From contig CM049307.1 of the NCBI GenBank assembly GCA_026874595.1, forward strand, positions 64,226,870 to 64,290,869: a stretch of 64,000 bases of DNA, in the 5' to 3' direction. Each line of letters opens with the position of its first letter. The first letter of the stretch is position 1. The notes below the pieces were generated by a model. It saw only the letters and a program-made list of their open reading frames with translations. It did not search any database and was not told where the DNA came from. Source of the DNA: Sipunculus nudus (taxonomy: Eukaryota; Annelida; Sipuncula; Golfingiida; Sipunculidae). Positions 9,001-57,100 of this stretch are shown here, piece by piece. Position numbers and translations under genes: made by a program.

Positions 9001-12000
9001 ATCTGGTAGACACAGACCTAGGGTGAAAGTACATTATATATGCTGAGGTCTGTGTATAAATTTGTGTACCAAATTAATTTATTAAAACTAACAAATCAGA
9101 AACTGAAATTCACCATGACTTTCTTTGCTTGTCCAAGGCGCAGTGGTTCAGCAAGTCCAACCTGCATTTGTGCTATATGAAAGGATGAATAGAGCGCAAA
9201 CACCTCCATCAGTCCATCATCATACCTGTAGAAGAAATAGTAAATATCTGCATTTTCATACCTATAAAAGAAAAAGTTTACACCTCCATTAGTCCAACAT
9301 TGTTCCTGTAGAAGACATTAAACAGCTCCATCAGTACATAATCATACCTGTAGAAGAAATAGTAAACACCTGCATCATTACACCTGTAAAAGAGACACAG
9401 TTAACACCTGGAATATCATACCTGTAGAATAAATGGTAAACACCTGCATCTGTTCATTATCATACCTGTAGAATAAATAGTAAATGCCTGCATCAGTCCA
9501 TTATCATACCTGTTGAATAAATAGTAAATACCTGCATAATCATACTTGTAGAATAAATAGTAATCACCTGCATCATCATACCTGTGGAAGACACAGTAAA
9601 CACCTGGAATATCATACCTGTAGAATAAATAGTAAACACCTGCATAATCATACTTGTAGAAGAAATAGTAAACACCTGCATCATCATACCTGTAGAATAC
9701 ATAGTAAACGCCTGCATCAGTCCATTATCATACCTGTAGAATAAATAGAAAACACCTGCATAATCATACTTGTAGAATAAATAGTAATAACCTGCATCAT
9801 CATACCTGTAGAAAACACAGTAAACACCTGGAATATCATACCTGTAGAATAAATAGTAAACACCTGCATAATCATACTTGTAGAAGAAATAGTAAACACC
9901 TTCATCATCATACCTGAAGAAGACACAGTGAACACCTGGAATATCATACCTGTAGAATAAATAGTGAACACCTGCATAATCATACTTGTAGAAGAAATAG
10001 TAAACACCTGCATCATCATACCTGTAGATAATATAGTAAACGCCTGAATCATAATACCTGTAGGTGAAATAGTAAACTCCTGCATCTTCATACCTGTCAA
10101 TTAAATAGTAAACACCTCCATTAGTCCATCATCACACCTGTAGGAACCCAGTAAATACCTACATCAGGGGGTAAAACCTAGAATAAATGTATTTCACCCA
10201 GGTTTAACCAGTGTTTTGCAAGGGGTTTGCCCAGTTTGAAACCCAAGCTTTTACCCCATGATTATTTACTTTTATCAAATGAGACCTTTGCTAAAGCTAA
10301 GATTCCTTATGTACGGCATGCAGCATATGGCTTGCGGCATGCGGAATGCTAAGATTTCTTATGTACAGAATGTAGCATGCAGCATGCGTGAACTTCTGAG
10401 AAATTTTATGTGGCATACATACTAAATATTTTCTTTTCTCATGCTTCCAGCTTGCACAATGGATCACATAACATTTATATTTGGTGAAGCCTAAATACTT
10501 TAATAGGCCCATACTAGGCTATATGCATGCTCACTGTTCATCCCGTCAACCCTCATCTTCCTGGCGATACTGCTCCCTATATTGATACAGAGGTCATGAT
10601 CTTGCATGACCCACTGCTCTTGGGTCATACAGAACTTGATTTTGTCTAACCAGTTCCATCAAAATTTCTTGTGTGGCTGTCAAAAACTTGGAACTTGGCA
10701 TTGTTGTGTTTGAATCTCGCGCCACACTCTGACTGGTGAATATCCACAGACTGATGGCAGTTTCCAGAATCCCCAGTCATGTATACCATGCGGGACCTTC
10801 AGAAATCGCTACCTGTAGCGATTCATAGTATATACTGATTTTATACGCATTCCGCATACTGCATGCCGATACCACATGCCATACATAAGGAATATTAGCT
10901 TTAGTTTCTTTCTGATTGGTCACACACATTTTTCTATGCTTGCAGCAAGCCAAGTGGCTCTGACTACGTTACCCCTGTCAAAAAGAAGCCTATTTGACTG
11001 ACACTTAAACTCATGTTCAAATATGCAGAACACATCACTCCAATCAATAGGAATTAAGGTAAACCAAGGAATCTGGGGTAATACCTGGATAAAACCTACA
11101 TTTTACCCAGGTGCTTTGTAAAACTTGCCAACCCATGCTATCACTATTATTAAATCAAACAAGTATTCGATATGACTAACCTTGATTCAGGACAATCCTT
11201 TCCACCAATGGCCCAAGGTCTACATCCTCCTCCCCAGCTGGCAATGTTTAACACAACTATTCCCTCGATCTCAGGTAGTGTGATCGCCTTACCATCAAGC
11301 TCAACCTGTCATACAGTCATGTATATCATAATTCATTAACATGTTGTTTAACACAACAATTTCCTTAACCTCATTTAGTGTGATCGCCTTACCATCAAGC
11401 TCAACCTGTCATCACACAGTCATGTATATCATAATTCATTAACATGTTGTTTAACACAACAATTTCCTCAATCTCAGGTAGTGTGATCGCCTTACCATCA
11501 AGCTCAACCTGTCATCACACAGTCATGTATATCATAATTCATTAACATGTTGTTTAACACAACAATTTCCTCAATCTCAGGTAGTGTAATCGCCTTACCA
11601 TCAAGCTCAACCTGTCATCACACAGTCATGTATATCATAATTCATAAACATGTTGTTTAACACAACAATTTCCTCAATCTCAGGTAGTGTAATCGCCTTA
11701 CCATCAAGCTCAACCTGTCATCACACAGTCATGTATATCATAATTCATTAACATGTTGTTTAACACAACAATTTCCTCAATCTCAGGTAGTGTGATCGCC
11801 TTACCATCAAGCTCAACCTGTCATCACACAGTCATGTATATCATAATTCATAAACATGTTGTTTAACACAACAATTACCTCAATCTCAGGTAGTGTAATC
11901 GCCTTACCATCAAGCTCAACCTGTCATCACACAGTCATGTATATCATAATTCATTAACATGTTGTTTAACACAACAATTTCCTCAATCTCAGGTAGTGTG

Positions 12001-15000
12001 ATCGCCTTACCATCAAGCTCAACCTGTCATCACACAGTCATGTATATCATAATTCATTAACATGTTGTTTAACACAACAATTTCCTCAATCTCAGGTAGT
12101 GTAATAGCCTTACCATCAAGCTCAACCTGTCATCACACAGTCATGTATATCATAATTCATTAACATGTTGTTTAACACAACAATTTCCTCAATCTCAGGT
12201 AGTGTAATGGCCTTACCATCAAGCTCAACCTGTCATCACACAGTCATGTATATCATAATTCATAAACATGTTGTTTAACACAACAATTTCCTCAATCTCA
12301 GGTAGTGTGATCGCCTTACTATCAAGCTCAACCTGTCATCACACAGTCATGTATATCATAATTCATAAACATGTTGTTTTACACAACAATTTCCTCAATC
12401 TCAGGTAGTGTAATAGCCTTACCATCAAGCTCAACCTGTCATCACACAGTCATGTATATCATAATTCATAAACATGTTGTTTAACACAACAATTTCCTCA
12501 ATCTCAGGTAGTGTGATCGCCTTACCATCAAGCTCAACCTGTCATCACACAGTCATGTATATCATAATTCATTAACATGTTGTTTAACACAACAATTTCC
12601 TCAATCTCAGGTAGTGTGATCGCCTTACCATCAAGCTCAACCTGTCATCACACAGTCATGTATATCATAATTCATAAACATGTTGTTTAACACAACAATT
12701 TCCTCAATCTCAGGTAGTGTAATCGCCTTACCATCAAGCTCAACCTGTCATCACACAGTCATGTATATCATAATTCATAAACATGTTGTTTAACACAACA
12801 ATTTCCTCAATCTCAGGTAGTGTAATCGCCTTACCATCAAGCTCAACCTGTCATCACACAGTCATGTATATCATAATTCATTAACATGTTGTTTAACACA
12901 ACAATTTCCTCAATCTCAGGTAGTGTGATCGCCTTACCATCAAGCTCAACCTGTCATCACACAGTCATGTATATCATAATTCATTAACATGTTGTTTAAC
13001 ACAACAATTTCCTCAATCTCAGGTAGTGTAATCGCCTTACCATCAAGCTCAACCTGTCATCACACAGTCATGTATATCATAATTCATAAACATGTTGTTT
13101 AACACAAAAATTTCCTCAATCTCAGGTAGTGTAATCGCCTTACCATCAAGCTCAACCTGTCACCACACAGTCATGTATATCATAATTCATTAACATGTTG
13201 TTTAACACAACAATTTCCTCAATCTCAGGTAGTGTGATCGCCTTACCATCAAGCTCAACCTGTCATCACACAGTCATGTATATCATAATTCATAAACATG
13301 TTGTTTAACACAACAATTTCCTCAATCTCAGGTAGTGTAATCGCCTTACCATCAAGCTCAACCTGTCATCACACAGTCATGTATATCATAATTCATAAAC
13401 ATGTTGTTTAACACAACAATTTCCTCAATCTCAGGTAGTGTAATCACTTTACCATCAAGCTCAACCTGTCATCACACAGTCATGTATATATCATGAAAAT
13501 GTTCAACCCACATTTAACTTTAAAATTTGACTGTTGTGGGAGTGATCAAACAATTATTGCTTAATTTCTAAAAATTCAGTGTCATACAAGACTGTCTTGT
13601 ATAAAAAAATATTTTCCATACTGATTCCATTTAAAAGTAGATAAAATTAAGTCTCAGCAGGTGAAGAAAACTGATATTTGCAAAGACTTCACATACCTTG
13701 ACCTTTTTTTCAAGGTGCTTGCATTCTCTCTCCAGAGTGTCTTTGGTTCCATAAATGAAATACCAGAACTGAAATTGCAAAATTGACACCAAGCATGATA
13801 ATACTGACTTCTCATAACTAGGGCATGATATCGCCTGAAATTTTGTATTGCGATATACTGCAATATATGGTGGCGTATTGTGATACATATTGCGGTATTT
13901 TCATTGTATTAAGCATGTAATACATAGTATATTATACTTTGTTGACAATGCCCAAAGAAATCTTCAAAATAAAACTTTTCTTGATGCCTTAGATCATGTG
14001 CAAATAACTCAGCAATTTAAGACTTCTGGACTGTGGTTTAGCACAGAGAGGTATTGGTGATGTGTACAATGTACCACATTTGGCTACGAAAAAGAAGTTG
14101 TAGTAAAATTATATTTATTAATATGCCTTTATGGTTAACAAAGAGTTACACACCACTGTTTGCACAAAAGGCAGTGCAAAATACAACATAACATTTAAAT
14201 AAAACTTGAATATAGTTATGAAAGATTTTGTCAGGGAATGAAATACACCAGATGGATGGACAGACAGACAGGAAAGACAAATAGGTTGTCATGGCAAAAT
14301 TGATCCCCCCCCCCTCCATTTCAAAGTCAGAAGTTAGGAAACTAGGGATAACATTGTATCCATTATGAATGAAACTATATAATGTTATGAAAATACAGAG
14401 AAATTAGCTACTTAGCATGGCAAGAGACTTTTTCCATCACTTACTTTACACGAAAAGGGTTTCTAGCTTTGATGGATGTGAAATGTTGCCGTTTCTTGGA
14501 CATCCAGACGTACGGCTGATGGAGGGTCATGACACACCAACAGCAGAAGTAAAAACACTGACGGTTAATCTAAGTGCAGATAAAACTACACAATTCATGA
14601 CCTCCATGTTCATTTTATTTACTTACTTTGTTTACAACTCTGCTACCAAACAAGGCAGGTCTGGATTCCCTGTGCTTGTGGAAGTTTAACGTCACCAGGG
14701 CGTCCACACCTATAGAGCAGTAGTTGTTCATCACCATGGTTTTACGTGGCATACGGATACCAAAGTGCACAGCTGGAGTCACCTGCACCTTCCATCTGAA
14801 ATGTAAGGATATAGAAACTCACTGCCAGAGAATTCTCTTGTAGGTACTTTTGATAAATACATGATAATGCAGACAGGTTGTGATTTCTATAAATATTCTT
14901 ACAAAATTTCTTTAACATGTAGAAATTCTTTCAAACAAATTAAAATCATACAGGGAAGTTTACTCTCATCCAATCTCACAGGATTCTTCAAAAGAGAGAG

Positions 15001-18000
15001 GGCGAAAGAGAGAGAGAGGGAGAGTAAGAGAAAGAGTGAGAGATGTGCATGTACATGCACAGAGGTCATCTTTGCGTTGGCCTGCACTACCAGGTCACAA
15101 CCTGTTTCATCAAGGAAATTCACTTTCTCATACACAACTTTGTATTTTTAGTCACAATAAATGAGTTGTTTCCTCATACTGCTTTGTTGTGTTCATGTCA
15201 GCTTGGAAGTCTTGAAAATTCCTGTGAGACTGGATGAGACTAAAATTACTAAACAAAACAAGAAATACCTGTAAATTGAAGTTTGACTGTAATTTAACTC
15301 TCATCTGGATCACTAGGGATTATAAGCCCAACCTTTGTGTGATCCCATTCTTCTTGACATTAACATCCAACTTTGAAGTATGACCTTTGGGCATACGCAC
15401 CCATATATCTTGTATTATCCCTAGTGATCCAGATGAGAGTAAAATTCCAATCAAACTTCTACTTTTACAGGTAACTCTCATTAAATTTAGTAATAAAGAA
15501 TCCACAGTAAAGTCCCCTTGCAGTTAGTTTCTGTCAAGGCCAAGGTATCCAATCAATATTCAAAGAAGTCATTAGCCATGAACACCCTCCATTAGAATGA
15601 GATTTCTGAGAGTTCATGACCTCAGCTGGCAGATAAAGAAAGCTCCAGTACTCAATGTACATGAACAGCATGTGATAGTCAGTACTCAATGTACAGCATG
15701 TGATAGCCAGTACTCAATGTACAGCATGTGATAGCCAGTACTCAATGTACATGTACAGCATATAATAGCCAGTACTCAATGTACAGCATGTGACAGCCAG
15801 TACTCAATGTACATGTACAGCATATGATAGCCAGTTCTCAATGTACATGTACAGCATGTGATAGCCAGTACTCAATGTACAGCATGTGATAGCCAGTACT
15901 CAATGTACAGCATGTGACAGCCAGTACTCAATGTACAGCATGTGATAGCCAGTACTCAATGTACAGCATGTGACAGCCAGTACTCAATGTACAGCATGTG
16001 ATAGCCAGTACTCAATGTACAGCATGTGACAGCCAGTACTCAATGTACATGTACAGCATATGATAGCCAGTGCTCAATGTACATGTACAGCATGTGATAG
16101 CCAGTACTCAATGTACAGCATGTGATAGCCAGTACTTAATGTACAGCATGTGACAGCCAGTACTCAATGTACAGCATGTGATAGCCAGTACTCAATGTAC
16201 AGCATGTGGCAACCAGTGCTCAATGTACAGCATGTGATAGCCAGTACTCAATGTACAGCATGTGACAGCCCATTCTGAGGAAATCTAGAAGGTGTAGATA
16301 CTTGTTAATCTGTAAATAATTAATGGAATATAAGTGCTGTGTTGACAAAGAACAACATCAAATTTCTATATTAGAGAGAAGCCCATAAAATAGAGGAGCC
16401 CTGAGGGAAAGGTTTCCCTCAAGATGTCCAAAGATATATGTTAAATATCACAGAACCAGAATGTGACCTGCTAATGACCTACATGAATATTAATAGGACT
16501 TCATACCTTTAAATGTCTGTCCCAGAATCAGGATAATTTCTTCTGGTTAACATATTGCTATGTAAAAGATGTAGATACCTATCAAGCTGGACGGGGGTGG
16601 CCGCTGTGAGCTCTGTCAGGACCTCGGAGACATCCACTGCTCCAGTTTTACCTTCACCCCATCCGAGTACCTGTGACAAATCATTACCGGTCCCAAGGGG
16701 CACCAGGCACACCTCTGGCACTGGCTGAAAATTTAAATAACCCAAAATCATACAGAAAAGTACAAAGGTGACCCAACATTCCTGATAGTAAAGTGGTTAT
16801 GTTGTATATGCACATACATTGTTTATTAAGAAAATAACTTCACAAAAATGCTTTTGTCAGTTTCCAATGAGGCTTCATTTTCAATTTCTTACTTTTTATC
16901 CCTCAGAAATATACCATTAAACCTCTTTAATTTTTCTCTGGTACTTTAAATTATATTCATCAACTGACATACAGTGAAACCTGTGTTATGAGACCACCAA
17001 AGGGACTGGTCAAAAGTGGTCTTTACTCACAGGTGGTCTTATTAGACAGGTCAGTTATAACCTATGTAATTGCTTTCAATTCACCCAAGGTGGTCTTAAT
17101 AGACATGTGGTCTTATAAGGAGAGTTCCACTTAATGAGAAATACAATGATAAAAAAAAAATTATCATATGATTCAACATACAGGACAGAGTTGAAAAGAT
17201 CAAAACCTACATCTAGCTTCAGTTTGTCAATGGCACCAAGCACCCAGCCTATAGTCCCATCACCCCCGGCAACAAGCACCCGGCACTTGGTGCCTGGCAA
17301 CAGGTGGCACCATTCCAGTCCGCATTCTGGTGGAATGTCACATAGGTCAATGACCTGAAAAAATAAAACACACTTATCATAGCAACTGTATATTAATGTT
17401 TTAAACTTTTATCAAGTATTAATATCTTAGATTCTAGCATTTCTTTTTTAACTGTGTAATGTACTTATCACCTGTCGCTCTGGACAGTGGATTACATCAA
17501 ACTTGTCATTTATTTAAAGTAAAATGTATGTACCGGATGGGTAAATCAGTGCCACCTAGTGGCCTGTTTATGAAACATCATGTCTCTAAGTAGAACTTTA
17601 AGGATTCCTGAAGTCCTGGTAATACTAATCAAGAAGTCAAGTCCTGGTAATACTAACCAAGCAATCAGGTCCTGGTAATACTAAACAGGAAGTCAGGTCC
17701 TGGTAATACTAACCAAGTACTTACTTGCAGTCCATATTTATTCATTACCTTAGGGCATTTTTTATATGTATCTATTAGTGTCTGGCCCAGAGACACTGCA
17801 GATTTTGGATTCGTGAAAAATTTACATGGCACAGTTCCAATCCTTGTGCATTGTACTTACCTGTGCTGGGTTGAGCATCTGACAGAATGCTTGGAGTACA
17901 TGCAGACCATCACCATTCCCACTCTTCCTGTTGGCTACGACGATCAGCGGTGACCAACCTTCTATCATGGGACGTCTGACAGATTCTACCACCAGGTGGC

Positions 18001-18535: not shown

Positions 18536-20330
18536 CTAGAAATAAGAAAAAGCATACGCCATTGACAAAATACCATGAAACCAGTAACAGACCTGCTAAC
18601 TTGAAATAAATGTATTTATAAGCAGTTCTGACAAAAAACAAGTGACAATTGGGTCATGGCGCTCAGCCAACTGACATGTTGACAATACGTCCTTGCACAT
18701 GTTGGCAAGTAATTAAGATGGTGTAGTTGGGATCATCATTTATGCATATTAGCTAAACTTCATCCAGACCTATAAGCACACCAAATTTAATAACAAGCCA
18801 TCCAGCATTTCCTGGTAAATCTCGTAATTTGTATATACTTGTTACAATATTTCTGGGGTGCTCAAACATGCCCTGTAACTCAAAGAATATAGGTCACAGT
18901 GACCTAATTTCAGGTTTTGTAGAAGAACTTTTGAGGAACTCTCAGGATGCAGAGGTTCATGATTCTAGCCTTTACAGGTATGATTTGTGCCTTGTTAACA
19001 GACCAAGTGTTCTGAAAAATGCAGGTAAAAAATTAAAAAAATTAAGAAAATGCAGGTAGCACCACCATTCAAGCCCAGTAGCTAAGGTTCATTAAGACCC
19101 ATAAGCACACAAATTCTAATGACAATTCATCAAGCTGTTGTTGAGGAATCTTGAAATTAGTGTGCATTTTTTAATTATTCTGGGGGGGTGGGGGTTAAAA
19201 GGCTCCGTAACTCCTAATTTCACTTTCAGTCAGCTGAGCTAAAAAGGCAGGATCATCCCCTCAACTTTGGTTTCAACATCTTAACTTATTTGATCCCATA
19301 TAAGGAATTTAGCTTCAAATAAAATGCTTTCCTTCTGCTGTTAATAAATATTTATCTATGAACATTCATAAATTTACAGAATGTAACTATTCAACCTATT
19401 TTAAATAAAACCCCGCCAGAACATTTTTATTCTACTAATAACTACAGATACCATACAAAGAGTATTGTTAGATGTATACTGTAAGTCGATCATAATTCAT
19501 ATCCATTAAATTGTTGTTTATCTCACCATTAAGGACCCCAACCTAAAATAATATAAGGGGGGGGGGGGGGTTGGGGCAGTCTGGCTAATCTCAATGAAGG
19601 CAGCTATCGAGAACATCTGGGGGATGAGCCACACTGGATTAAAGGTACAACAGTTGAAGTGATTTATAATCAAAGGAGTAGGGTTCAGGGAAGCATTGCA
19701 CTGAAGTGGGAGCATAGGGGCAGCAGCCCGCCCATACGTGTAAAATATTCATGCAAAAGGCTATGGACTAATACTTATGGTCTTGGGTCTTCACATTAAG
19801 GCAAGCTTTTCAGACTGATCTATTCATCCATGGAAATTCACCTCACTGAACTCATATTGGGCAAAAAAAAAGTTCTTTGTTTCAGATTACATAAAAAAAA
19901 AAAAATGGAACGATCATAAACTGCACAAATATGTGATGGTGGAAAGATTGATCGACAGTTACAAGCACAATGTCCTCTAGTTCTGTTACACCCTATCTTG
20001 GTGAACAGTTCCTGTTTGTTTAATTTGTCTATTCCAGTGTATGATCTATACTCTTAAGTACCGGCATGTCATTGTCAGTACATGTATATCCTTCTGTATT
20101 CCACAGCTGCATGGTTACCTTTGTCTACAACCATGCAACCCCTAATATTTAAACATTTCATCATGAACTTGTTTAAAACACCATATGTAGTAACAGCATC
20201 CACATGTCCTCACTGGCAGGTCTGTATTCTCCGGTATAGAGAATCATTGGCAAAGTGGAATATTGCAGATAAATTAATCATGATTAATATCCTGCCCTGC
20301 TTGATGTTAACCTTAAGACTTTAACCTTTT
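18536..20330. other. Sequence upstream of the DGKE start: probable 5' intron and diverged repeats
   Basis: The base before the DGKE ATG is the end of a pyrimidine-rich TTTCTTATTTCTAG, so this is probably 5' UTR intron. Two diverged copies of one repeat begin near 18765 and 19085 (shared ATAAGCACAC and a following AAT-rich block); the second ends near 19230 with GTCAGCTGAGCTAAA, the inverted form of an end seen at 55716. Poly-G at 19557-19570. No gene recognised. Confidence 0.45.
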
Positions 20331-21760: not shown

Positions 21761-22004
21761 GAGTCACATGTCAAACTTGATCAGATAAGGCTATTTATTA
21801 TTATTATTATTTTTTTTTTTGCTATCTGCATTGACTTGTTTAGATTTTATAGGGGAAAAGGCTTAAAAAAACTTTAGGCCCAAAAATCTTCTTCTCCGAA
21901 ACTGTCCAGCCAAATTGTTCAATATTTCATAGTTATAATCCCTGAATAAATCTCTCTGAAGTTTGTATGAATATTGTTCCAGTTCGGTGAATATTGGACG
22001 AGTT

Positions 22005-22172
22005 ACAGGAAACTTAACTTAGTCATTTGGTTAAAAAAAAGAAATTAAAATTTCAATCTCAGAAACGGCTGGAGCTATCATCACAAAATTTCAACTTAAC
22101 TTAGTCTTTTGGTAAAAAAAACCCCATTAAAATTACAATCTCAGAAACGGATGGAGCTATCATCACAAAATT
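22005..22172 (+). repeat. ~80-bp direct duplication
   Basis: Two adjacent copies starting CTTAACTTAGTC and containing ATCTCAGAAACGG(C/A)TGGAGCT then ATCATCACAAAATTTC. Non-coding, intergenic. Confidence 0.7.
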
Positions 22173-22775: not shown

Positions 22776-22794
22776 AATTATTATTACATTTGAA

Positions 22795-36100: not shown

Positions 36101-39100
36101 TAACAGGTGGACAGGAGTTGTGGAATGGACTGTAGTATTTGATAAAATAGCATTTTATCCAGATATAATTTAAGTGTTTAGCTGGTATTTACTTTATGTG
36201 TACATTGACTTGATATTGATATATTAAAGAAGCTATGATGTAATCTGTCTTTACAGTGTTCTCAGAAGGCGGTATCAACCAAGTTGAAATGTTGTTCAGA
36301 TGTAATTACCTAGCACTTGTTGGTGGAGGAAAGTCCCCAAAATACCCACCAAACAAAGGTAAGGATTCCACAGCAATACTTCTCAGCTGGTTATGTAAAA
36401 ATAGCCTCCAAACAACAGTAAGGATTTCACAGCAATACTACTAGGCTGGTTATGTAAAAATACCCACCAAACAACAGTTAGGATTCCACAGCAATACTAC
36501 TAGGCAGGTTATGTAAAAATAGCCACCAAACAACAGTAAGGATTCCACAGCAATACTACTAGGCTCGTTATGTAAAAATAGCCTCCAAACAACAGTAAGG
36601 ATTTCACAGCAATACTACTAGGCTGGTTATGTAAAAATAGCCACCAAACAACAGTTAGGATTCCACAGCAATACTACTAGGCAGGTTATGTAAAAATAGC
36701 CACCAAACAACAGTAAGGATTCCATAGCAATACTACTAGGCTGGTTATGTAAAAATAGCCACCAAACAACAGTAAGGATTCCACAGCAATACTACTAGGC
36801 TGGTTATGTAAAAATAGCCACCAAACAACAGTAAGGATTCCACAGCAATACTACTAGGCTGGTTATGTAAAAATAGCCACCAAACAACAGTAAGGATTCC
36901 ACAGCAATACTACTAGGCAGGTTATGTAAAAATAGCCACCAAACAACAGTAAGGATTCCATAGCAATACTACTAGGCTGGTTATGTAAAAATAGCCACCA
37001 AACAACAGTTAGGATTCCACAGCAATACTACTAGGCAGGTTATGTAAAAATAGCCACCAAACAACAGTAAGGATTCCATAGCAATACTACTAGGCTGGTT
37101 ATGTAAAAATAGCCACCAAACAACAGTAAGGATTCCACAGCAATACTAATAGGCAGGTTATGTAAAAATAGCCACCAAACAACAGTAAGGATTCCACAGC
37201 AATACTACTAGGCTGGTTATGTAAAAATAGCCACCAAACAACAGTAAGGATTCCACAGCAATACTACTAGGCTGGTTATGTAAAAATAGCCACCAAACAA
37301 CAGTAAGGATTCCACAGCAATACTACTAGGCTGGTTATGTAAAAATAGCCACCAAACAACAGTAAGGATTCCACAGCAATACTACTAGGCTGGTTATGTA
37401 AAAATAGCCACCAAACAACAGTAAGGATTCCACAGCAATACTACTAGGCTGGTTATGTAAAAATAGCCACCAAACAACAGTAAGGATTCCACAGCAATAC
37501 TACTAGGCAGGTTATGTAAAAATAGCCACCAAACAACAGTAAGGATTCCACAGCAATACTACTAGGCTGGTTATGTAAAAATAGCCACCAAACAACAGTA
37601 AGGATTCCACAGCAATACTACTAGGCTGGTTATGTAAAAATAGCCACCAAACAACAGTAAGGATTCCACAGCAATACTACTAGGCAGGTTATGTAAAAAT
37701 AGCCACCAAACAACAGTAAGGATTCCACAGCAATACTACTAGGCTGGTTATGTAAAAATAGCCACCAAACAACAGTAAGGATTCCACAGCAATACTACTA
37801 GGCAGGTTATGTAAAAATACCCACCAAACAACAGTAAGGATTCCACAGCAATACTACTAGGCAGGTTATGTAAAAATAGCCACCAAGCAACAGTAAGGAT
37901 TCCACAGCAATACTACTAGGCTGGTTATGTAAAAATAGCCACCAAACAACAGTAAGGATTCCACAGCAATACTACTAGGCAGGTTATGTAAAAATAGCCA
38001 CCAAACAACAGTAAGGATTCCACAGCAATACTACTAGGCAGGTTATGTAAAAATAGCCACCAAACAACAGTAAGGATTCCACAGCAATACTACTAGGCTT
38101 GTTATGTAAAAATAGCCACCAAACAACAGTTAGGATTCCACAGCAATACTAATAGGCTGGTTATGTAAAAATAGCCACCAAACAACAGTAAGGATTCCAC
38201 AGCAATACTAATAGGCAGGTTATGTAAAAATAGCCACCAAACAACAGTAAGGATTCCATAGCAATACTACTAGGCTGGTTATGTAAAAATAGCCACCAAA
38301 CAACAGTAAGGATTCCACAGCAATACTACTAGGCGGGTTATGTAAAAATAGCCACCACACAAGAGTAAGGATTCCACAGCAATACTACTGGGCGGGTTAT
38401 GTAAAAATAGCCACCAAACAACAGTAAGGATTCCACAGCAATACTACTAGGCTGGTTATGTAAAAATAGCCACCAAACAACAGTAAGGATTCCACAGCAA
38501 TACTACTAGGCTGGTTATGTAAAAATAGCCACCAAACAACAGTAAGGATTCCACAGCAATACTACTAGGCAGGTTATGTTAAAAAAGCCACCAAACAACA
38601 GTAAGGATTCCATAGCAATACTACTAGGCTGGTTATGTAAAAATAGCCACCAAACAACAGTTAGGATTCCACAGCAATACTACTAGGCAGGTTATGTAAA
38701 AATAGCCACCAAACAACAGTAAGGATTCCATAGCAATACTACTAGGCTGGTTATGTAAAAATAGCCACCAAACAACAGTAAGGATTCCACAGCAATACTA
38801 CTAGGCAGGTTATGTAAAAATAGCCACCAAACAACAGTAAGGATTCCACAGCAATACTACTAGGCTGGTTATGTAAAAATAGCCACCAAACAACAGTAAG
38901 GATTCCACAGCAATACTACTAGGCAGGTTATGTAAAAATAGCCACCAAACAACAGTAACGATTCCACAGCAATACTACTAGGCTGGTTATGTAAAAATAG
39001 CCACCAAACAACAGTAAGGATTCCACAGCAATACTACTAGGCTGGTTATGTAAAAATAGCCACCAAACAACAGTAAGGATTCCACAGCAATACTACTAGG

Positions 39101-42100
39101 CTTGTTATGTAAAAATAGCCACCAAACAACAGTAAGGATTCCACAGCAATACTACTAGGCTGGTTATGTAAAAATAGCCACCAAACAACAGTAAGGATTC
39201 CACAGCAATACTACTAGGCAGGTTATGTAAAAATAGCCACCAAACAACAGTAAGGATTCCACAGCAATACTACTAGGCAGGTTATGTAAAAATAGCCACC
39301 AAACAACAGTTAGGATTCCACAGCAATACTACTAGGCTGGTTATGTAAAAATAGCCACCAAACAACAGTAAGGATTCCACAGCAATACTACTAGGCAGGT
39401 TATGTAAAAATACCCACCAAACAACAGTAAGGATTCCACAGCAATACTACTAGGCTGGTTATGTAAAAATAGCCACCAAACAACAGTAAGGATTCCACAG
39501 CAATACTACTAGGCTGGTTATGTAAAAATAGCCACCAAACAACAGTAAGGATTCCACAGCAATACTACTAGGCAGGTTATGTAAAAATAGCCACCAAACA
39601 ACAGTAAGGATTCCACAGCAATACTACTAGGCAGGTTATGTAAAAATAGCCACCAAACAACAGTTAGGATTCCACAGCAATACTACTAGGCTGGTTATGT
39701 AAAAATAGCCACCAAACAACAGTAAGGATTCCACAGCAATACTAATAGGCAGGTTATGTAAAAATAGCCACCAAACAACAGTAAGGATTACAAAGCAATA
39801 CTACTAGGCAGGTTATGTAAAAATAGCCACCAAACAACAGTTAGGATTCCACAGCAATACTAATAGGCTGGTTATGTAAAAATAGCCACCAAACAACAGT
39901 TAGGATTCCACAGCAATACTACTAGGCTGGTTATGTAAAAATAGCCACCAAACAACAGTAAGGATTCCACAGCAATACTACTAGGCTGGTTATGTAAAAA
40001 TAGCCACCAAACAACAGTAAGGATTCCACAGCAATACTACTAGGCTGGTTATGTAAAAATAGCCACCAAACAACAGTAAGGATTCCACAGCAATACTAAT
40101 AGGCTGGTTATGTAAAAATAGCCACCAAACAACAGTAAGGATTCCACAGCAATACTACTAGGCAGGTTATGTAAAAATAGCCACCAAACAACAGTTAGGA
40201 TTCCACAGCAATACTAATAGGCTGGTTATGTAAAAATAGCCACCAAACAACAGTTAGGATTCCATAGCAATACTACTAGGCTGGTTATGTAAAAATAGCC
40301 ACCAAACAACAGTAACGATTCCACAGCAATACTACTAGGCTGGTTATGTAAAAATAGCCACCAAACAACAGTAAGGATTCCACAGCAATACTACTAGGCT
40401 GGTTATGTAAAAATAGCCACCAAACAACAGTAAGGATTCCACAGCAATACTACTAGGCAGGTTATGTAAAAATAGCCACCAAACAACAGTAAGGATTCCA
40501 CAGCAATACTACTAGACTGGTTATGTAAAAATAGCCACCAAACAACAGTAACGATTCCACAGCAATACTACTAGGCTGGTTATGTAAAAATAGCCACCAA
40601 ACAACAGTAAGGATTCCACAGCAATACTACTAGGCTGGTTATGTAAAAATAGCCACCAAACAACAGTAAGGATTCCACAGCAATACTACTAGGCTTGTTA
40701 TGTAAAAATAGCCACCAAACAACAGTAAGGATTCCACAGCAATACTACTAGGCTGGTTATGTAAAAATAGCCACCAAACAACAGTAAGGATTCCACAGCA
40801 ATACTACTAGGCAGGTTATGTAAAAATAGCCACCAAACAACAGTAAGGATTCCACAGCAATACTAATAGGCTGGTTATGTAAAAATAGCCACCAAACAAC
40901 AGTTAGGATTCCACAGCAATACTACTAGGCAGGTTATGTAAAAATAGCCACCAAACAACAGTAAGGATTCCACAGCAATACTACTAGGCTGGTTATGTTA
41001 AAATAGCCACCAAACAACAGTAAGGATTCCACAGCAATACTACTAGGCTGGTTATGTAAAAATAGCCACCACACAACAGTAAGGATTCCACAACAATACT
41101 AATAGGCTGGTTATGTAAAAATAGCCACCAAACAACAGTAAGGATTCCACAGCAATACTACTAGGCTGGTTATGTAAAAATAGCCACCAAACAACAGTAA
41201 CGATTCCACAGCAATACTACTAGGCTGGTTATGTAAAAATAGCCACCAAACAACAGTTAGGATTCCACAGCAATACTAATAGGCTGGTTATGTAAAAATA
41301 GCCACCAAACAACAGTTAGGATTCCACAGCAATACTACTAGGCTGGTTATGTAAAAATAGCCACCAAACAACAGTAAGGATTCCACAGCAATACTACTAG
41401 GCTGGTTATGTAAAAATAGCCACCAAACAACAGTAAGGATTCCAAAGCAATACTACTAGGCAGGTTATGTAAAAATAGCCACCAAACAACAGTTAGGATT
41501 CCACAGCAATACTAATAGGCTGGTTATGTAAAAATAGCCACCAAACAACAGTTAGGATTCCACAGCAATACTACTAGGCTGGTTATGTAAAAATAGCCAC
41601 CAAACAACAGTAAGGATTCCACAGCAATACTACTAGGCTGGTTATGTAAAAATAGCCACCAAACAACAGTAAGGATTCCACAGCAATACTACTAGGCTGG
41701 TTATGTAAAAATAGCCACCACACAACAGTAAGGATTCCACAGCAATACTAATAGGCTGGTTATGTAAAAATAGCCACCAAACAACAGTAAGGATTCCACA
41801 GCAATACTACTAGGCAGGTTATGTAAAAATAGCCACCAAACAACAGTTAGGATTCCACAGCAATACTAATAGGCTGGTTATGTAAAAATAGCCACCAAAC
41901 AACAGTTAGGATTCCATAGCAATACTACTAGGCAGGTTATGTAAAAATAGCCACCAAACAACAGTTAGGATTCCACAGCAATACTACTAGGCTGGTTATG
42001 TAAAAATAGCCACCAAACAACAGTTAGGATTCCACAGCAATACTACTAGGCAGGTTATGTAAAAATAGCCACCAAACAACAGTAAGGATTCCACAGCAAT

Positions 42101-45100
42101 ACTACTAGGCTGGTTATGTAAAAATAGCCACCAAACAACAGTAAGGATTCCACAGCAATACTACTAGGCTGGTTATGTAAAAATAGCCACCACACAACAG
42201 TAAGGATTCCACAGCAATACTAATAGGCTGGTTATGTAAAAATAGCCACCAAACAACAGTAACGATTCCACAGCAATACTACTAGGCTGGTTATGTAAAA
42301 ATAGCCACCAAACAACAGTAAGGATTCCACAGCAATACTACTAGGCTGGTTATGTAAAAATAGCCACCAAACAACAGTAAGGATTCCACAGCAATACTAC
42401 TAGGCTTGTTATGTAAAAATAGCCACCAAACAACAGTAAGGATTCCACAGCAATACTACTAGGCTGGTTATGTAAAAATAGCCACCAAACAACAGTAAGG
42501 ATTCCACAGCAATACTACTAGGCAGGTTATGTAAAAATAGCCACCAAACAACAGTAAGGATTCCACAGCAATACTAATAGGCTGGTTATGTAAAAATAGC
42601 CACCAAACAACAGTTAGGATTCCACAGCAATACTACTAGGCAGGTTATGTAAAAATAGCCACCAAACAACAGTAAGGATTCCACAGCAATACTACTAGGC
42701 TGGTTATGTAAAAATAGCCACCAAACAACAGTAAGGATTCCACAGCAATACTACTAGGCTGGTTATGTAAAAATAGCCACCACACAACAGTAAGGATTCC
42801 ACAGCAATACTAATAGGCTGGTTATGTAAAAATAGCCACCAAACAACAGTAAGGATTCCACAGCAATACTACTAGGCTGGTTATGTAAAAATAGCCACCA
42901 AACAACAGTAACGATTCCACAGCAATACTACTAGGCTGGTTATGTAAAAATAGCCACCAAACAACAGTTAGGATTCCACAGCAATACTAATAGGCTGGTT
43001 ATGTAAAAATAGCCACCAAACAACAGTTAGGATTCCACAGCAATACTACTAGGCTGGTTATGTAAAAATAGCCACCAAACAACAGTAAGGATTCCACAGC
43101 AATACTACTAGGCTGGTTATGTAAAAATAGCCACCAAACAACAGTAAGGATTCCAAAGCAATACTACTAGGCAGGTTATGTAAAAATAGCCACCAAACAA
43201 CAGTTAGGATTCCACAGCAATACTAATAGGCTGGTTATGTAAAAATAGCCACCAAACAACAGTTAGGATTCCACAGCAATACTACTAGGCTGGTTATGTA
43301 AAAATAGCCACCAAACAACAGTAAGGATTCCACAGCAATACTACTAGGCTGGTTATGTAAAAATAGCCACCAAACAACAGTAAGGATTCCACAGCAATAC
43401 TACTAGGCTGGTTATGTAAAAATAGCCACCACACAACAGTAAGGATTCCACAGCAATACTAATAGGCTGGTTATGTAAAAATAGCCACCAAACAACAGTA
43501 AGGATTCCACAGCAATACTACTAGGCAGGTTATGTAAAAATAGCCACCAAACAACAGTTAGGATTCCACAGCAATACTAATAGGCTGGTTATGTAAAAAT
43601 AGCCACCAAACAACAGTTAGGATTCCATAGCAATACTACTAGGCAGGTTATGTAAAAATAGCCACCAAACAACAGTTAGGATTCCACAGCAATACTACTA
43701 GGCTGGTTATGTAAAAATAGCCACCAAACAACAGTTAGGATTCCACAGCAATACTACTAGGCAGGTTATGTAAAAATAGCCACCAAACAACAGTAAGGAT
43801 TCCACAGCAATACTACTAGGCAGGTTATGTAAAAATAGCCACCAAACAACAGTAAGGATTCCACAGCAATACTACTAGGCTGGTTATGTAAAAATAGCCA
43901 CCAAACAACAGTAAGGATTCCACAGCAATACTACTAGGCAGGTTATGTAAAAATAGCCACCAAACAACAGTAAGGATTCCACAGCAATACTACTAGGCAG
44001 GTTATGTAAAAATAGCCACCAAACAACAGTAACGATTCCACAGCAATACTACTAGGCTGGTTATGTAAAAATAGCCACCAAACAACAGTAAGGATTCCAC
44101 AGCAATACTACTAGGCAGGTTATGTAAAAATAGCCACCAAACAACAGTAAGGATTCCACAGCAATACTACTAGGCTGGTTATGTAAAAATAGCCACCAAA
44201 CAACAGTAAGGATTCCACAGCAATACTACTAGGCAGGTTATGTAAAAATAGCCACCAAACAACAGTAAGGATTCCACAGCAATACTACTAGGCAGGTTAT
44301 GTAAAAATAGCCACCAAACAACAGTAAGGATTCCACAGAAATACTACTAGGCAGGTTATGTAAAAATAGCCACCAAACAACAGTAAGGATTCCACAGAAA
44401 TACTACTAGGCTGGTTATGTAAAATAGCCACCAAACAACAGTAATGATTTCACTGCAATACTACTAGGCTGGTTATGTAAAAATACCCACCAAACAACAA
44501 TTAGGATTCCATAGCAATACTACTAGGCTGGTTATGTAAAAATAGCCACCAAACAACAGTAAGGATTCCACAGCAATACTACTAGGCAGGTTATGTAAAA
44601 ATAGCCACCACACAAGAGTAAGGATTCCACAGCAATACTACTAGGCTGGTTATGTAAAAATAGCCACCAAACAACAGTAAGGATTCCACAGCAATACTAC
44701 TAGGCAGGTTATGTAAAAATAGCCACCAAACAACAGTAAGGATTCCACAGCAATACTACTAGGCAGGTTATGTAAAAATAGCCACCAAACAACAGTTAGG
44801 ATTCCACAGCAATACTAATAGGCTGGTTATGTAAAAATAGCCACCAAACAACAGTAAGGATTCCACAGCAATACTACTAGGCTTGTTATGTAAAAATAGC
44901 CACCAAACAACAGTAAGGATTCCATAGCAATACTACTAGGCAGGTTATGTAAAAATAGCCACCAAACAACAGTAAGGATTCCACAGCAATACTACTAGGC
45001 AGGTTATGTAAAAATAGCCACCAAACAACAGTAAGGATTCCACAGCAATACTACTAGGCTTGTTATGTAAAAATAGCCACCAAACAACAGTAAGGATTCC

Positions 45101-48100
45101 ACAGCAATACTACTAGGCAGGTTATGTAAAAATAGCCACCAAACAACAGTTAGGATTCCAAAGCAATACTACTAGGCTTGTTATGTAAAAATAGCCACCA
45201 AACAAACGGTAAGGATTCCACAACAATACTACTAGGCTGGTTATGTAAAAATAGCCACCAAACAACAGTAAGGATTCCACAGCAATACTACTAGGCTGGT
45301 TATGTAAAAATAGCCACCAAACAACAGTAAGGATTCCACAGCAATACTACTAGGCAGGTTATGTAAAAATAGCCACCAAACAACAGTTAGGATTCCACAG
45401 CAATACTACTAGGCAGGTTATGTAAAAATAGCCACCACACAAGAATAAGGATTCCACAGCAATACTACTAGGCAGGTTATGTAAAAATAGCCACCACACA
45501 AGAGTAAGGATTCCACAGCAATACTACTGGGCGGGTTATGTAAAAATAGCCACCAAACAACAGTAAGGATTCCACAGCAATACTACTAGGCAGGTTATGT
45601 AAAAATAGCCACCACACAAGAGTAAGGATTCCACAGCAATACTACTGGGCGGGTTATGTAAAAATAGCCACCAAACAACAGTAAGGATTCCACAGCAATA
45701 CTACAGGGCGGGTTATGTAAAAATAGCCACCAAACAACAGTAAGGATTCCACAGCAATACTACTAGGCTTGTTATGTAAAAATAGCCACCAAACAACAGT
45801 AAGGATTCCACAGCAATACTACTAGGCTGGTTATGTAAAAATAGCCACCAAACAACAGTAAGGATTCCACAGCAATACTACTAGGCAGGTTATGTAAAAA
45901 ATGGCCACCAAACAACAGTAAGGATTCCACAGCAATACTACTAGGCAGGTTATGTAAAAATAGCCACCAAACAACAGTAAGGATTCCACAGAAATACTAC
46001 TAGGCAGGTTATGTAAAAATAGCCACCAAACAACAGTAAGGATTCCACAGCAATACTACTAGGCAGGTTATGTAAAAATAGCCACCAAACAACAGTTAGG
46101 ATTCCACAGCAATACTACTAGGCAGGTTATGTAAAAATAGCCACCAAACAACAGTAAGGATTCCACAGCAATACTACTAGGCTGGTTATGTAAAAATAGC
46201 CACCAAACAACAGTAAGGATTCCAAAGCAATACTACTAGGCAGGTTATGTAAAAATAGCCACCAAACAACAGTTAGGATTCCACAGCAATACTAATAGGC
46301 TGGTTATGTAAAAATAGCCACCAAACAACAGTTAGGATTCCACAGCAATACTACTAGGCTGGTTATGTAAAAATAGCCACCAAACAACAGTAAGGATTCC
46401 ACAGCAATACTACTAGGCTGGTTATGTAAAAATAGCCACCAAACAACAGTAAGGATTCCACAGCAATACTACTAGGCTGGTTATGTAAAAATAGCCACCA
46501 CACAACAGTAAGGATTCCACAGCAATACTAATAGGCTGGTTATGTAAAAATAGCCACCAAACAACAGTAAGGATTCCACAGCAATACTACTAGGCAGGTT
46601 ATGTAAAAATAGCCACCAAACAACAGTTAGGATTCCACAGCAATACTAATAGGCTGGTTATGTAAAAATAGCCACCAAACAACAGTTAGGATTCCATAGC
46701 AATACTACTAGGCAGGTTATGTAAAAATAGCCACCAAACAACAGTTAGGATTCCACAGCAATACTACTAGGCTGGTTATGTAAAAATAGCCACCAAACAA
46801 CAGTTAGGATTCCACAGCAATACTACTAGGCAGGTTATGTAAAAATAGCCACCAAACAACAGTAAGGATTCCACAGCAATACTACTAGGCAGGTTATGTA
46901 AAAATAGCCACCAAACAACAGTAAGGATTCCACAGCAATACTACTAGGCTGGTTATGTAAAAATAGCCACCAAACAACAGTAAGGATTCCACAGCAATAC
47001 TACTAGGCAGGTTATGTAAAAATAGCCACCAAACAACAGTAAGGATTCCACAGCAATACTACTAGGCAGGTTATGTAAAAATAGCCACCAAACAACAGTA
47101 ACGATTCCACAGCAATACTACTGGGCTGGTTATGTAAAAATAGCCACCAAACAACAGTAAGGATTCCACAGCAATACTACTAGGCAGGTTATGTAAAAAT
47201 AGCCACCAAACAACAGTAAGGATTCCACAGCAATACTACTAGGCTGGTTATGTAAAAATAGCCACCAAACAACAGTAAGGATTCCACAGCAATACTACTA
47301 GGCAGGTTATGTAAAAATAGCCACCAAACAACAGTAAGGATTCCACAGCAATACTACTAGGCAGGTTATGTAAAAATAGCCACCAAACAACAGTAAGGAT
47401 TCCACAGAAATACTACTAGGCAGGTTATGTAAAAATAGCCACCAAACAACAGTAAGGATTCCACAGAAATACTACTAGGCTGGTTATGTAAAATAGCCAC
47501 CAAACAACAGTAATGATTTCACTGCAATACTACTAGGCTGGTTATGTAAAAATACCCACCAAACAACAATTAGGATTCCATAGCAATACTACTAGGCTGG
47601 TTATGTAAAAATAGCCACCAAACAACAGTAAGGATTCCACAGCAATACTACTAGGCAGGTTATGTAAAAATAGCCACCACACAAGAGTAAGGATTCCACA
47701 GCAATACTACTAGGCTGGTTATGTAAAAATAGCCACCAAACAACAGTAAGGATTCCACAGCAATACTACTAGGCAGGTTATGTAAAAATAGCCACCAAAC
47801 AACAGTAAGGATTCCACAGCAATACTACTAGGCAGGTTATGTAAAAATAGCCACCAAACAACAGTTAGGATTCCACAGCAATACTAATAGGCTGGTTATG
47901 TAAAAATAGCCACCAAACAACAGTAAGGATTCCACAGCAATACTACTAGGCTTGTTATGTAAAAATAGCCACCAAACAACAGTAAGGATTCCATAGCAAT
48001 ACTACTAGGCAGGTTATGTAAAAATAGCCACCAAACAACAGTAAGGATTCCACAGCAATACTACTAGGCAGGTTATGTAAAAATAGCCACCAAACAACAG

Positions 48101-51100
48101 TAAGGATTCCACAGCAATACTACTAGGCTTGTTATGTAAAAATAGCCACCAAACAACAGTAAGGATTCCACAGCAATACTACTAGGCAGGTTATGTAAAA
48201 ATAGCCACCAAACAACAGTTAGGATTCCAAAGCAATACTACTAGGCTTGTTATGTAAAAATAGCCACCAAACAAACGGTAAGGATTCCACAACAATACTA
48301 CTAGGCTGGTTATGTAAAAATAGCCACCAAACAACAGTAAGGATTCCACAGCAATACTACTAGGCTGGTTATGTAAAAATAGCCACCAAACAACAGTAAG
48401 GATTCCACAGCAATACTACTAGGCAGGTTATGTAAAAATAGCCACCAAACAACAGTTAGGATTCCACAGCAATACTACTAGGCAGGTTATGTAAAAATAG
48501 CCACCACACAAGAATAAGGATTCCACAGCAATACTACTAGGCAGGTTATGTAAAAATAGCCACCACACAAGAGTAAGGATTCCACAGCAATACTACTGGG
48601 CGGGTTATGTAAAAATAGCCACCAAACAACAGTAAGGATTCCACAGCAATACTACTAGGCAGGTTATGTAAAAATAGCCACCACACAAGAGTAAGGATTC
48701 CACAGCAATACTACTGGGCGGGTTATGTAAAAATAGCCACCAAACAACAGTAAGGATTCCACAGCAATACTACAGGGCGGGTTATGTAAAAATAGCCACC
48801 AAACAACAGTAAGGATTCCACAGCAATACTACTAGGCTTGTTATGTAAAAATAGCCACCAAACAACAGTAAGGATTCCACAGCAATACTACTAGGCTGGT
48901 TATGTAAAAATAGCCACCAAACAACAGTAAGGATTCCACAGCAATACTACTAGGCAGGTTATGTAAAAATAGCCACCAAACAACAGTAAGGATTCCACAG
49001 CAATACTACTAGGCAGGTTATGTAAAAATAGCCACCAAACAACAGTAAGGATTCCACAGAAATACTACTAGGCAGGTTATGTAAAAATAGCCACCAAACA
49101 ACAGTAAGGATTCCACAGCAATACTACTAGGCAGGTTATGTAAAAATAGCCACCAAAGAACAGTTAGGATTCCACAGCAATACTACTAGGCAGGTTATGT
49201 AAAAATAGCCACCAAACAACACTAAGGATTCCACAGCAATACTACTAAGCTGGTTATGCAAAATATACCCACCAAAAAAACTTAAAAGATACAACAGCAG
49301 TACTACTTGGCTGGTTATGTAAAAGTACCCACCAAATGAATTTAAAGATAACACAGCAATACTGAGTCGATTATGCAAACATGAGATTTATCATTTTATA
49401 TGATATAATTACGCTCTTTACACAGCGCTTTAACTATAGGCCTACTCCCTATATCATAAGTGCTGTTTGTTATGACCTCATATCCTGAATTGCTACACCA
49501 GGGGGGAGCACTGTATTCTCGTCCAATCAGATGAGACCTTGTGCTGGAAGACAAGGCCAAGCGAGGAATACATGGAGCCAATCATGTTCATTTCATTTTG
49601 AGTGACAGCTCATTGCCCCGGTAACCATCTGAATAGGCCACAGGCTCAAAGAGAATTGCCCCAAACATGGATTGCTTAGGGCCTTGGGCACATAGGATGC
49701 CCGGCCGGTGAATTGTAATTCAAACGAAACATAACAACAAAGGCTGCGTGCACACCTCGCTGGCTGGTTTTGTACTGCAGACAACAGATACATGGCTACA
49801 CTAACACAGTCATAATGTCATAATCGAATCGGTCAATAATGTGAGAATACAGAGGGAGCAATTAAAATTCAACCGTGAACTCTCATCAAGCGGCACTTGA
49901 AGGGCAGCTATCAGCTGAGCCAGGATGCCTGTTAAGTGTTTGTTTATTGGCATCTGGTTGGCTGCTTGTCACATCATACGCATGTTTTTTTCAGTGGACA
50001 ACGAACAGCCATCTGGTGTTTAAATATATCATAAACGGTCAAAGCTGGCAGCGTGAAAATCAGTTGCTTCTTTAGAAGCGCAAGATTTCCACTGCCTCGG
50101 GAGCGTATGATGTAATATGATTAATATGAGTGATGAATTACAAATATATTAGTTTCTTAATAAAATCCGAAGAGATTTGATAGTTCAAAATACAGAAAAC
50201 TCCCAGTCCATCCCCACTTCTACAATTCCTGGGCATTGCACTGCTGTACATACAGCTTCTGGAAATTAGTTTTGCTTTTGACAGTTATGGTATGGGATGA
50301 CCTGAAGAAAAAGCATGTGATAGAACTAGAGTTCAGCAGTGAAGTCAGAGGGGTCCGATTACGACGAGATCGGTAAGTGTATTATGTACTGGGAATGTGT
50401 ACCTTAAATGTCTTAAACACTTGTTTAGTCTCGATCTCTTTTAAAATAATGGTTTATTGCATATCATCAACTGTACTGTTAAAGTGTTACCAGTGTTTTA
50501 TATATAGAAATTCTGCTTTGCAGTAATGAAAAGTCTGTGTATCAAGTATACATAAATACACCAACCAGTTTATCAGAGAAATTAAACATTACAGATATTT
50601 AGAAATATCTGAGACAATCTTGTAGGTTGTAACCATGGAAACATGAGATGTTTGTTTCAATTCCTAATTTTCTGATATGTTAATCATACTTTTCATTACT
50701 GGCCACCCATTTGGTGGTCCCTTTTTTGGATGTTTCATTGATAGGAATAGGGTTGGGTATTTTTTTTAAATTTGTATACCATATCTAACTCAAGGATTGA
50801 CAGTATGCTTGTTTTTTTTTCAGGATAGTTGTGGTGCTAGATTCCATGATCAAGGTGTATACATTCACACAGAATCCTCAGCAGTTACATGTATTTGAAA
50901 CATGTCCTAACACTAAAGGTGAGCAGATGTTGTGGCATCACACATGCATTTGTTAGATGTTTGTATACCTAGGCATTGCATCATCCCCATCACAGACATT
51001 ATTTGATGATTCCCACTGTATTTATTTAGATAGGTCCATGGCCACCTGATGGCACTGTCTGTTGAATAAGAGTTGTGGTAACTGTACAATAAGCTTGAGT

Positions 51101-54100: not shown

Positions 54101-57100
54101 TATGCTTTCACGCTGAGGATTGCATATTTTTGTCCAGCTGGGAAAGTGTGAGTCATTCTAAAACCTCTCATGTTTACTATTAGTAATTCAGACTTTTTGT
54201 TAAATTACTTAGCTGGTATTGTTGTTATTCATAAATATGTCTTTCCTCAGCATCAGTTTCAACCAGGATTCCACGTTGCTCTGTGTATCCAGTGACCATG
54301 GAACAGTTCATATTTTTGCTGTGGATGATCAGAAGAAAAATAAACAGTCCAGGTCAGTTCATTAAGTTTGAAAAAATAAAAACAATTCATGATGGTTTAT
54401 TAAGATCAAAAGTAAATAATCAAGGTCAGTGTATTTAGATGGAAAGTAAACAGTCCAGGTCAGTTCAGTTTATTAAGATTGAAATTAAAAGTCCAGGTCA
54501 GTTCATTAAGACTGAAAATAAACAGGCCAGGTCAGTTTATAATATTGTAAATGAACTATCCACGCCAGTTGATTAAGATGAAAAAAAAACTGTCAAGGCC
54601 AGTTCAGTTTATAAATCTTGAAAATAAATAGACCAGGTCAGTTTCTTAAGATTGAAAATAACAGTCCAGGTCTATTAATTTTATCAATGAGAATTGTCTC
54701 CATCAATATGTCAACCAAGTTCAAACATTTGTGTCCTTGACCCTGGTAGCCTGGGCCTTGTCAGGTGTTAGTATATGCTTCTGAAGAAGGGGGCCTGTTT
54801 TAGAATGTGGTATGCTTTAATTGTCTTGGGATATTATGGCATCTCCAGTGCTAAGAAATTTCTAGTTAATTGCATTTAAAAGATATTAATAGTCCAGGTC
54901 AGTTTATTAAGATAGAAAATAAAGGCATATTTTCTCTCTTTAATAGTACAGGTCTCAAAACTCCAAGTCAGTAGACTGTGACAATTTGCATGCAGTGGTA
55001 ATGACACCCTGCCACATAACAAGCTGTACCTTAATAAATAAAGATTGTGTTATCTGCTGTACTTTGCCCAAGTAACTTTCATCGATTATTAAAAAAGAGG
55101 CCTTTTGTTCATTTCAGCCTAGCATCAGCCAGCTTCCTGCCAAAATATTTCAGTTCCAAGTGGAGTTTTTCCAAGTTCCAGGTGCCCGGTAATTCCCAGT
55201 GTATCTGTGCCTTTGGTTCGCAGTCCCCACCTGATGTGAATTCTGTGATAGGTAAGTAGCTGGGTGGATTACCTGTTCTTTATTGGTGTTCTTAACAGAT
55301 GAGCACCTGTTCCATGTTTAGCTCAGCTGACTGAAAAATAACAGAGATATAATGATGGGTCTTTGTCCATCGGCCGTCCATCAGTAGGGCAGAAGTTGTA
55401 AGTGTAAGGGCTAGGATCATGAAACTCTGTATTATCAGAGATTCTATAAGGATCACCTTGGAAACCTGAATTGAGTTCTCTGTGGCCTATATTCTGTGAG
55501 TTACAAGGTGTGTTTCAGCATACCAGAAATAATATAAATACATACAAATGGCCTGATGTTTCAAGTTAGCCATGATCAGTTGTTCCTGAAATCAGGTTGC
55601 CAGAAGATCTTGGATAGCTTTTTCTTGTACTGAAGACCAGTAATGCCACCTGTGATCCTGAAAATTTGTGCTTATACCACAGTTACTGCCACAAATATGT
55701 GTATTATAAGCTTTTTTAGCTCAGCTGACTTTCAGTCATGCTGAGCTATAGCGATCACTTTTAGTCCGTCATCCGTCTGTCCGTCTGTCTGTCCGTTAAC
55801 CAGGCACAAATCGTAACAGCTGGACCTAGAATCTTGTAACTTGACATTCTGAGAGGTCCATGAAAAATATCCTTGGAATCAGAAATTAGGTCTCTGTTAC
55901 CCATATCCTTCGAGCTATGGGGCCCCAAAGTACCCCCCAGAGTAGTGAAAAATTTCATACAAAAACTTCAATATTTCATTAACTACATCAGTGATGGTCA
56001 TGATTTTTGGCATGCATATTGATCATGAAATGTTCCATCAGTTCCTGCAGACTGGTGGCGCCACCTGTATTTTTCGATTTTTTACGAATTTTTTTCTCTA
56101 TTTTTGAGACCTTTAAAAATGTGGACATCTGTTAACAGGGCACAAATCGTAAAGACTGGACCTAGAATCTTGTTACTTGACATTCTGAGAGACCTATGAA
56201 AAGTCTCCATGGAAACCAGAAATTAGGTCTCTGTTACCCATATCCTTTGAGCTATGGGGCCCCAAGTACCCCCCAGAATAATGAAAAATTTCATGCAAAA
56301 ACTTCAATATCTCATTAACTACATCACTGATGGTCATGATTATTGGCATACATATTGATCATGGGATGTTTCATCAGTTTCTACAGACTGGTGGTGCCAC
56401 CTGTATTTTTCACATTTTTACAATTTTTTTCATGCAAAAACTTCAATATCTCATTAACTACATCACTGATGGTCATGATTATTGGCATACATATTGATCA
56501 TGAGATGTTTCATCAGTTTCTGCAGACTGGTGGCGCCACCTATATTTTTAGATTTTTTATGAATTTTTTTCTTTATTTTTGAGACCTTTAAAGATATGAA
56601 CATCTGTTAAAAGGGCACAAATCATAACAACTGGACATAGAATCTTTATTCTTTCACACAGGGAGATCCATGAAAAATCTCCATGGAAACCTGAAATTAG
56701 GTCTCTGTTACCCATATCCATAAAGTTGTATGGCTCCAAAATACCCCCCAGAATAATGAAAAATTTGATACAAAAACTCCAGTATCTCAATAACTACAAC
56801 ACTGATGCTCATGATTTTTGGCATACATATTGATCATGACATGTTCCATCAGTTTCAGCAGACTGGTGGAGCCACCTGTATTTTTTTTTATGGGGCTTCA
56901 GCTGAATGGTTATATACTACCATTCAGATGATAAAATTTCCTTTTGCAATTCTCTTCCCAGTCAGCTGAGTGTCATGACCCATGGGTGACTTGTTTTTTA
57001 TTTGCATCTGTTTCACAAGACATCTTTTGATCCTGAATCATCCTTTTTCAGCCAACCCGAATTGAAAGCATATCACATAAAACACTACACCTTTGAGTTA

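Follow-up and report, generated by a model that had tools for sequence, protein, structure and literature searches.

Why should four minisatellites in two neighbouring genes all lie against the edge of a coding exon, with units that carry both the exon edge and the splice site? The question is raised by a window of 64,000 nucleotides (C2:64226870-64290869) in the 1.43 Gb genome of Sipunculus nudus; the window is the whole of that stretch, and positions below are counted from its first base.

The window contains a diacylglycerol kinase (DGK) gene on the minus strand and the WIPI3 (WDR45B) gene on the plus strand. When joined, the DGK accessory-domain exons match Pfam DAGK_acc (E 8.6e-27), and the joined WIPI3 exons match WIPI3 in the PDB (8zqg, E 4.4e-41). 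The accessory-domain matches, converted from contig coordinates, lie at 9102-9290 and 14618-14734 of the window. Nine stretches of the window also align with the human WIPI3 sequence. The kinase is presumably of the epsilon type, with further exons upstream of the accessory-domain ones, judging by open frames and known DGK sequence.

Four of these exons adjoin arrays. One accessory-domain exon of DGK (YDDGLMEVF...; 9114..9225, minus strand, low end approximate) has the acceptor ctacag/GTATGATG between 9226 and 9225, the slash marking the junction here and below, and another (11183..11305, minus strand, low end approximate) has the acceptor gacag/GTTGAG. In WIPI3, the exon ending in KYPPNK (36259..36358, plus strand) has the donor AAAG/GTAAGG, and the exon ending in KKNKQS (54252..54352, plus strand) has the donor CCAG/GTCAGT; both starts were taken from alignment. 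By their homology these are evidently real coding exons, and all four of the junctions in question read AG/GT. At the low end of the window, 8500-8820 is the end of a multi-copy element with at least 39 near-copies of 93-97% identity on many chromosomes among the matches listed (531 first-look candidates), and near it, at 4001-8000, is a GC-rich stretch with a strong excess of A over T.

All four arrays are made of copied exon-intron borders. In arrays 1 and 2, each unit consists of the acceptor and the first exon bases, copied from two DGK exons that follow one another; in arrays 3 and 4, it consists of the last exon bases and the donor, copied from two exons of WIPI3. In all four, the terminal unit is the real exon edge, and the array extends into the intron only. 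Array 1 (minus strand) was placed by Tandem Repeats Finder (TRF) at 9337-10121 with a 36-bp period and, by reading the sequence, was widened to about 9181..10160, with ends set by eye; its 36- or 44-bp units have the form ..ctacag/GTATGATG(GACTGATG)GAGGTGTTT... Array 2 (11245..13490, minus strand; TRF 11245-13489, 103 bp x 21.8) has a unit of about 42 bases of intron 3' end and 61 bases of exon. Array 3 (36339..49336, plus strand) spans 13 kb and contains about 220 units of 59 bp (TRF 59 bp x 220). Array 4 (54337..54925, plus strand) consists of degenerate units of about 33-39 bp up to 54672 (TRF 54337-54672, in rows of 34, 39, 67 and 72 bp), to which reading the sequence adds an isolated unit near 54890-54925. 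The claim that four arrays in two adjacent genes derive from real exon-intron junctions is thus borne out by TRF, by sequence reading and by protein homology.

The further claim, that every unit holds an exon edge together with a splice site, applies fully to array 2, where AG/GT is present in 21/21 units; elsewhere the AG or GT has been lost from some units. Among the 24 units of array 1 with a homologous junction, AG is intact in 19 and AG/GT in 18. GT is kept in 213/219 units of array 3, and none of those 213 reads AG/GT: most are ACA/GT, against the exon's own AAG/GT. In array 4, GT is kept in 7/10 units and AG/GT is likewise found in 7/10. The spacing in array 1 is 36 bases in 16 of 23 unit steps, and the unit is, by our own reading, open in the frame of the exon. 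Splicing to an upstream unit could therefore give in-frame 12-residue repeats, while the 44-base units break the frame.

Other tandem repeats are found in the window. Two 28-base arrays, at 15661-16270 and 17611-17717, lie in DGK introns and seemingly contain no exon edge; the second is about 140 bases from the exon-1 donor. Two separate long-period arrays, at 31995-33139 (280 bases) and 55795-56885 (139, 336 and 475 bases), have the palindromic word GGTGGCGCCACC in common.

Exon-edge arrays also occur elsewhere in the genome. A sample of 160 conserved exons with 320 edges was taken from three families (50 myosin-head, 50 dynein and 60 kinesin exons; HECT rows were left out). For myosin-head and for dynein, these were the first 30 matches and then the next 20 without inner stops, and for kinesin the first 60 without inner stops. 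An edge was counted as inside an array if at least 8 array bases lay on both sides of the junction. The edges were placed by a scoring script, with 9 of the 160 loci checked by eye, and some of the 320 are uncertain because weakly scoring acceptors and donors were kept in the sample. Five edges (1.6%; 95% interval 0.5-3.6%) lie inside an exon-edge array, at donors in L034, L051 and L145 and at acceptors in L042 and L113; all but L145 were read by eye. Two other candidates were rejected: at L125 the true exon starts at 283 and at most 3 exon bases are in the array, and at L162 only 3 exon bases are. The window itself, with 4 array edges among about 30 (our own edge count, from exons recognised in open frames), is locally rich in exon-edge arrays, and comparison of its 4 in about 32 edges with the 5/320 of the sample gives P = 0.005, a post hoc value since the window was chosen after being seen.

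Two gene arrangements were noticed in passing. At C2:44849337-44852248 (G000), consecutive myosin-head matches fall on the same profile stretch (about 109-153), as for an alternative-exon cluster in one myosin gene, and 14 of 18 tyrosinase-family matches are on C16 of G000, as for an expanded gene family.

The original prediction knew of no described class with this property. Arrays spanning junctions have, however, already been reported in amphioxus and at a human locus. According to the accessible portions of two reports (PMC3087553, PMC3902484), "mirages" are minisatellite-like duplications of exon-intron boundaries in the amphioxus Adh3, globin and PGBD5 genes; they involve 5' or 3' exon boundaries, and many, although not all, of their units carry splice signals. 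The same portions give unit lengths of 10-72 bases for Adh3 and 150-160 bases for globin, cite Canestro et al. 2002 for the first description, and present RT-PCR that suggests regular splicing of the Adh3 and globin mirages. The Sipunculus arrays are a new case of these known mirages and not a new class. In all four, the units cross from exon to intron in a real gene; both boundary types are represented (two acceptors and two donors in the window, two acceptors and three donors in the sample); and many units, but not all, keep the signal. Further traits expected of mirages are homogenised inner units, with those at the boundary left out, and a length that varies from haplotype to haplotype or in the soma. 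Array 3, however, is far larger than the globin mirages described in the available text, which occur in BflGb6 and BflGb9 and comprise 3 and 6 units in BflGb6.

Two further systems are similar in part, as far as the accessible text of their reports goes. The human CBS 31-bp VNTR, c.1444_1467+7(16_21), also joins an exon end to an intron start (24 + 7 bases, by its name) and is repeated 16-21 times, but it is a single human locus in an unrelated gene (PMC2630376). In the intron gain of a potato RdRp gene, the duplicate likewise runs from an intron 3' end into the start of the following exon, but there one duplication gave a new intron, whereas here there are many copies (PMC4974935). Within the open-access literature, no genome-wide count of mirages was found, and PMC3087553 was the only work found to treat mirages, minisatellites and introns together; a further search that took in molluscs gave no match.

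How such arrays arise is best explained, in our judgement, by local tandem duplication of the ordinary kind, followed by growth through unequal exchange; the result would be tolerated as long as the exon keeps an intact edge. We regard this as probable. Slippage or unequal exchange, the usual seeds of minisatellites, would give a short tandem duplication that by chance took in an exon edge, after which the copies in the intron would be amplified and homogenised. Because the coding exon is constrained, growth would proceed into the intron only and the exon edge would stay the terminal unit. With one complete exon edge left, the genes would still function.

The composition of array 2 bears on the direction of copying. 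A change from EGIVV to EEIVV is shared by 19 of 20 listed units, the remaining one reading V, while the exon has EGIVV, which we take to be the conserved form in DGK. Since the units share this change and the protein sequence of the exon is conserved, the exon predates the array. Compared with the exon over 57 bases, the two end units show 7 and 6 differences and the 18 inner listed units 3-6 (one of the 21 units was missed by the search word). Similar short words lie at the two breakpoints of array 2, GTTGAACATT at the far end in the intron and GTTAAACATT at the exon end; in this single case, they are of the kind that slippage duplication would be expected to involve. That array 2 is a dispersed satellite is not supported: a 206-base query of two units had 12 matches genome-wide, all at its own locus. 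Two further DGK loci were compared, L129 (profile 1-143) and L130 (profile 1-84), and their stretches with accessory-domain matches have no array beyond one two-copy 15-base repeat. That the units differ in length and in sequence favours a general process.

Splice scores were obtained with matrices from the 149 acceptors and 144 donors that scored well enough among 153 sampled exons. In array 1, 2 of the 19 intact decoy acceptors score at least as high as the real acceptor; in array 2 none of 21 reaches the real one, but the scores are nearly equal (6.6 vs 6.9). The decoy donors of array 3 are all below the real donor (maximum 7.3 vs 11.4), and in array 4, 6 of 7 decoys match or surpass their own real donor. 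For the sampled arrays, the counts of decoys scoring at least as high as the real site are 24/27 in L034, 5/10 in L051, 3/4 in L145, 0/1 in L042 and 2/7 in L113. Given the scores in arrays 1 and 4 and in the sampled arrays, it is no rule that decoys are weaker than the real site. With 19 and 21 near-equal acceptors upstream in arrays 1 and 2, and equal donors in array 4, exon definition must work hard. The terminal exon-edge unit would be the spliced one, chosen by exon definition, aided in array 3 by the weaker decoy donors.

The main competitor to ordinary local duplication is a transcription- or splicing-linked mutational process that starts tandem duplications at or near exon edges, for example through R-loops, pausing or words shared by exon and intron. 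This was the mechanism originally proposed, and the sampled exons support one part of it, crowding near exons, but do not show a start at the splice junction itself. Around 60 exons, 27 arrays with a period of at least 18 occupy 11.4 of 162.7 kb, or 7% of the sequence with the exons counted in. Coverage is about 5% at 60-240 bases from the exon, 2.7% over the 15 intron bases next to the junction and 1.6% over the 15 exon bases beyond it, and there is none in the 9600 bases lying 30-60 bases inside exons. Whether arrays meet junctions more often than chance depends on the expectation: the 5 edges observed in arrays are fewer than the 15.4 expected of random intron positions (from the coverage at 60-240 bases; P = 0.002), but the 5 junction-containing arrays exceed the 1.65 expected under random birth (49 arrays, overlapping loci unmerged; P = 0.026).

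Array ends, too, crowd near exons. Exon-facing ends number 0.56 per kb within 60 bases of the exon versus 0.116 per kb beyond 120 bases (8 and 19 ends; 60 long loci, 27 arrays; one-sided P = 0.001), in distance bins that were chosen after seeing the data. A cruder count of both ends gives 0.51 vs 0.25 per kb (P = 0.039), and the other 100 exons add 9 exon-facing ends within 60 bases in 24 kb. The excess of junction-containing arrays and this crowding make plain uniform placement too simple. The junction itself, however, shows no peak of array ends in the 160-exon sample: 5 ends lie inside the exon (-60..-8) and 3 at the edge, against 9 at 8-60 bases and 4 at 60-120 bases, and the density at -60..60 does not differ clearly from that at 60-300 bases (P = 0.088). 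In addition, mobile elements may dilute the arrays of deep introns, which would act in the right direction; by an insensitive measure, repeated words make up 0.03% at 0-60 bases and 1% beyond 1 kb. Arrays thus crowd towards exons, and the junction-containing ones are not singled out. A transcription- or splicing-linked process, which the post hoc richness of the window would also suit, is on this evidence rather unlikely. A broader version is, if anything, slightly less likely: that such a process makes tandem duplications several times commoner up to about 60-300 bases from exon edges than in the depths of introns, and that minisatellites at exon edges form a class of thousands across the genome which supplies raw material for new splice sites.

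It is much less probable that the arrays are kept as dual-specific or recursive AG/GT splice sites that remove mis-spliced pieces of array. Such a role is suggested by the AG/GT at all four real junctions of the window and, in array 1, by acceptor and donor scores that are both good at the same AG/GT (medians 13.7 and 9.5), so that it is possible for that array. The 36-base units are, however, too short for a usual intron. AG/GT also fails as a general rule of exon-edge arrays: it is absent from the GT-bearing units of array 3 and from the units of L042, L051 and L145, and is found in 1/7 units of L113 and 24/27 of L034, so that overall it does not characterise the unit junctions. Moreover, the sampled exons' own junctions read AG/GT at 25% of acceptors and 64% of donors. 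The accessible part of a report on human UBC (PMC10809524) describes tandem repeats with dual-specific AGGT sites, a unit feature shared with the arrays here; the UBC repeats are coding and are spliced by whole units, whereas here the real junction has AG/GT in only one (L034) of the five sampled arrays.

Chance or artefact, whether through TRF running past the exon edge, wrong exon models or misassembly, is hardly credible. The uncounted weak edge calls L125 and L162 are reminders of it, but at least 20 exon bases recur across many units of the window arrays, the exons are fixed by protein homology and similar arrays are present in unrelated genes.

Mirage-type minisatellites formed by ordinary local duplication therefore remain the preferred reading. 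In lancelets, mirages have been described gene by gene, in the text available to us; in Sipunculus nudus they can be given a rate, about 1.6% of the edges of conserved exons in the sample. If this rate holds genome-wide, which is an extrapolation, there would be thousands of loci with many copies of a gene's own splice site. Exon-edge arrays would then be a natural setting in which to test how the spliceosome chooses among near-identical neighbouring sites, and to test intron gain through tandem duplication.
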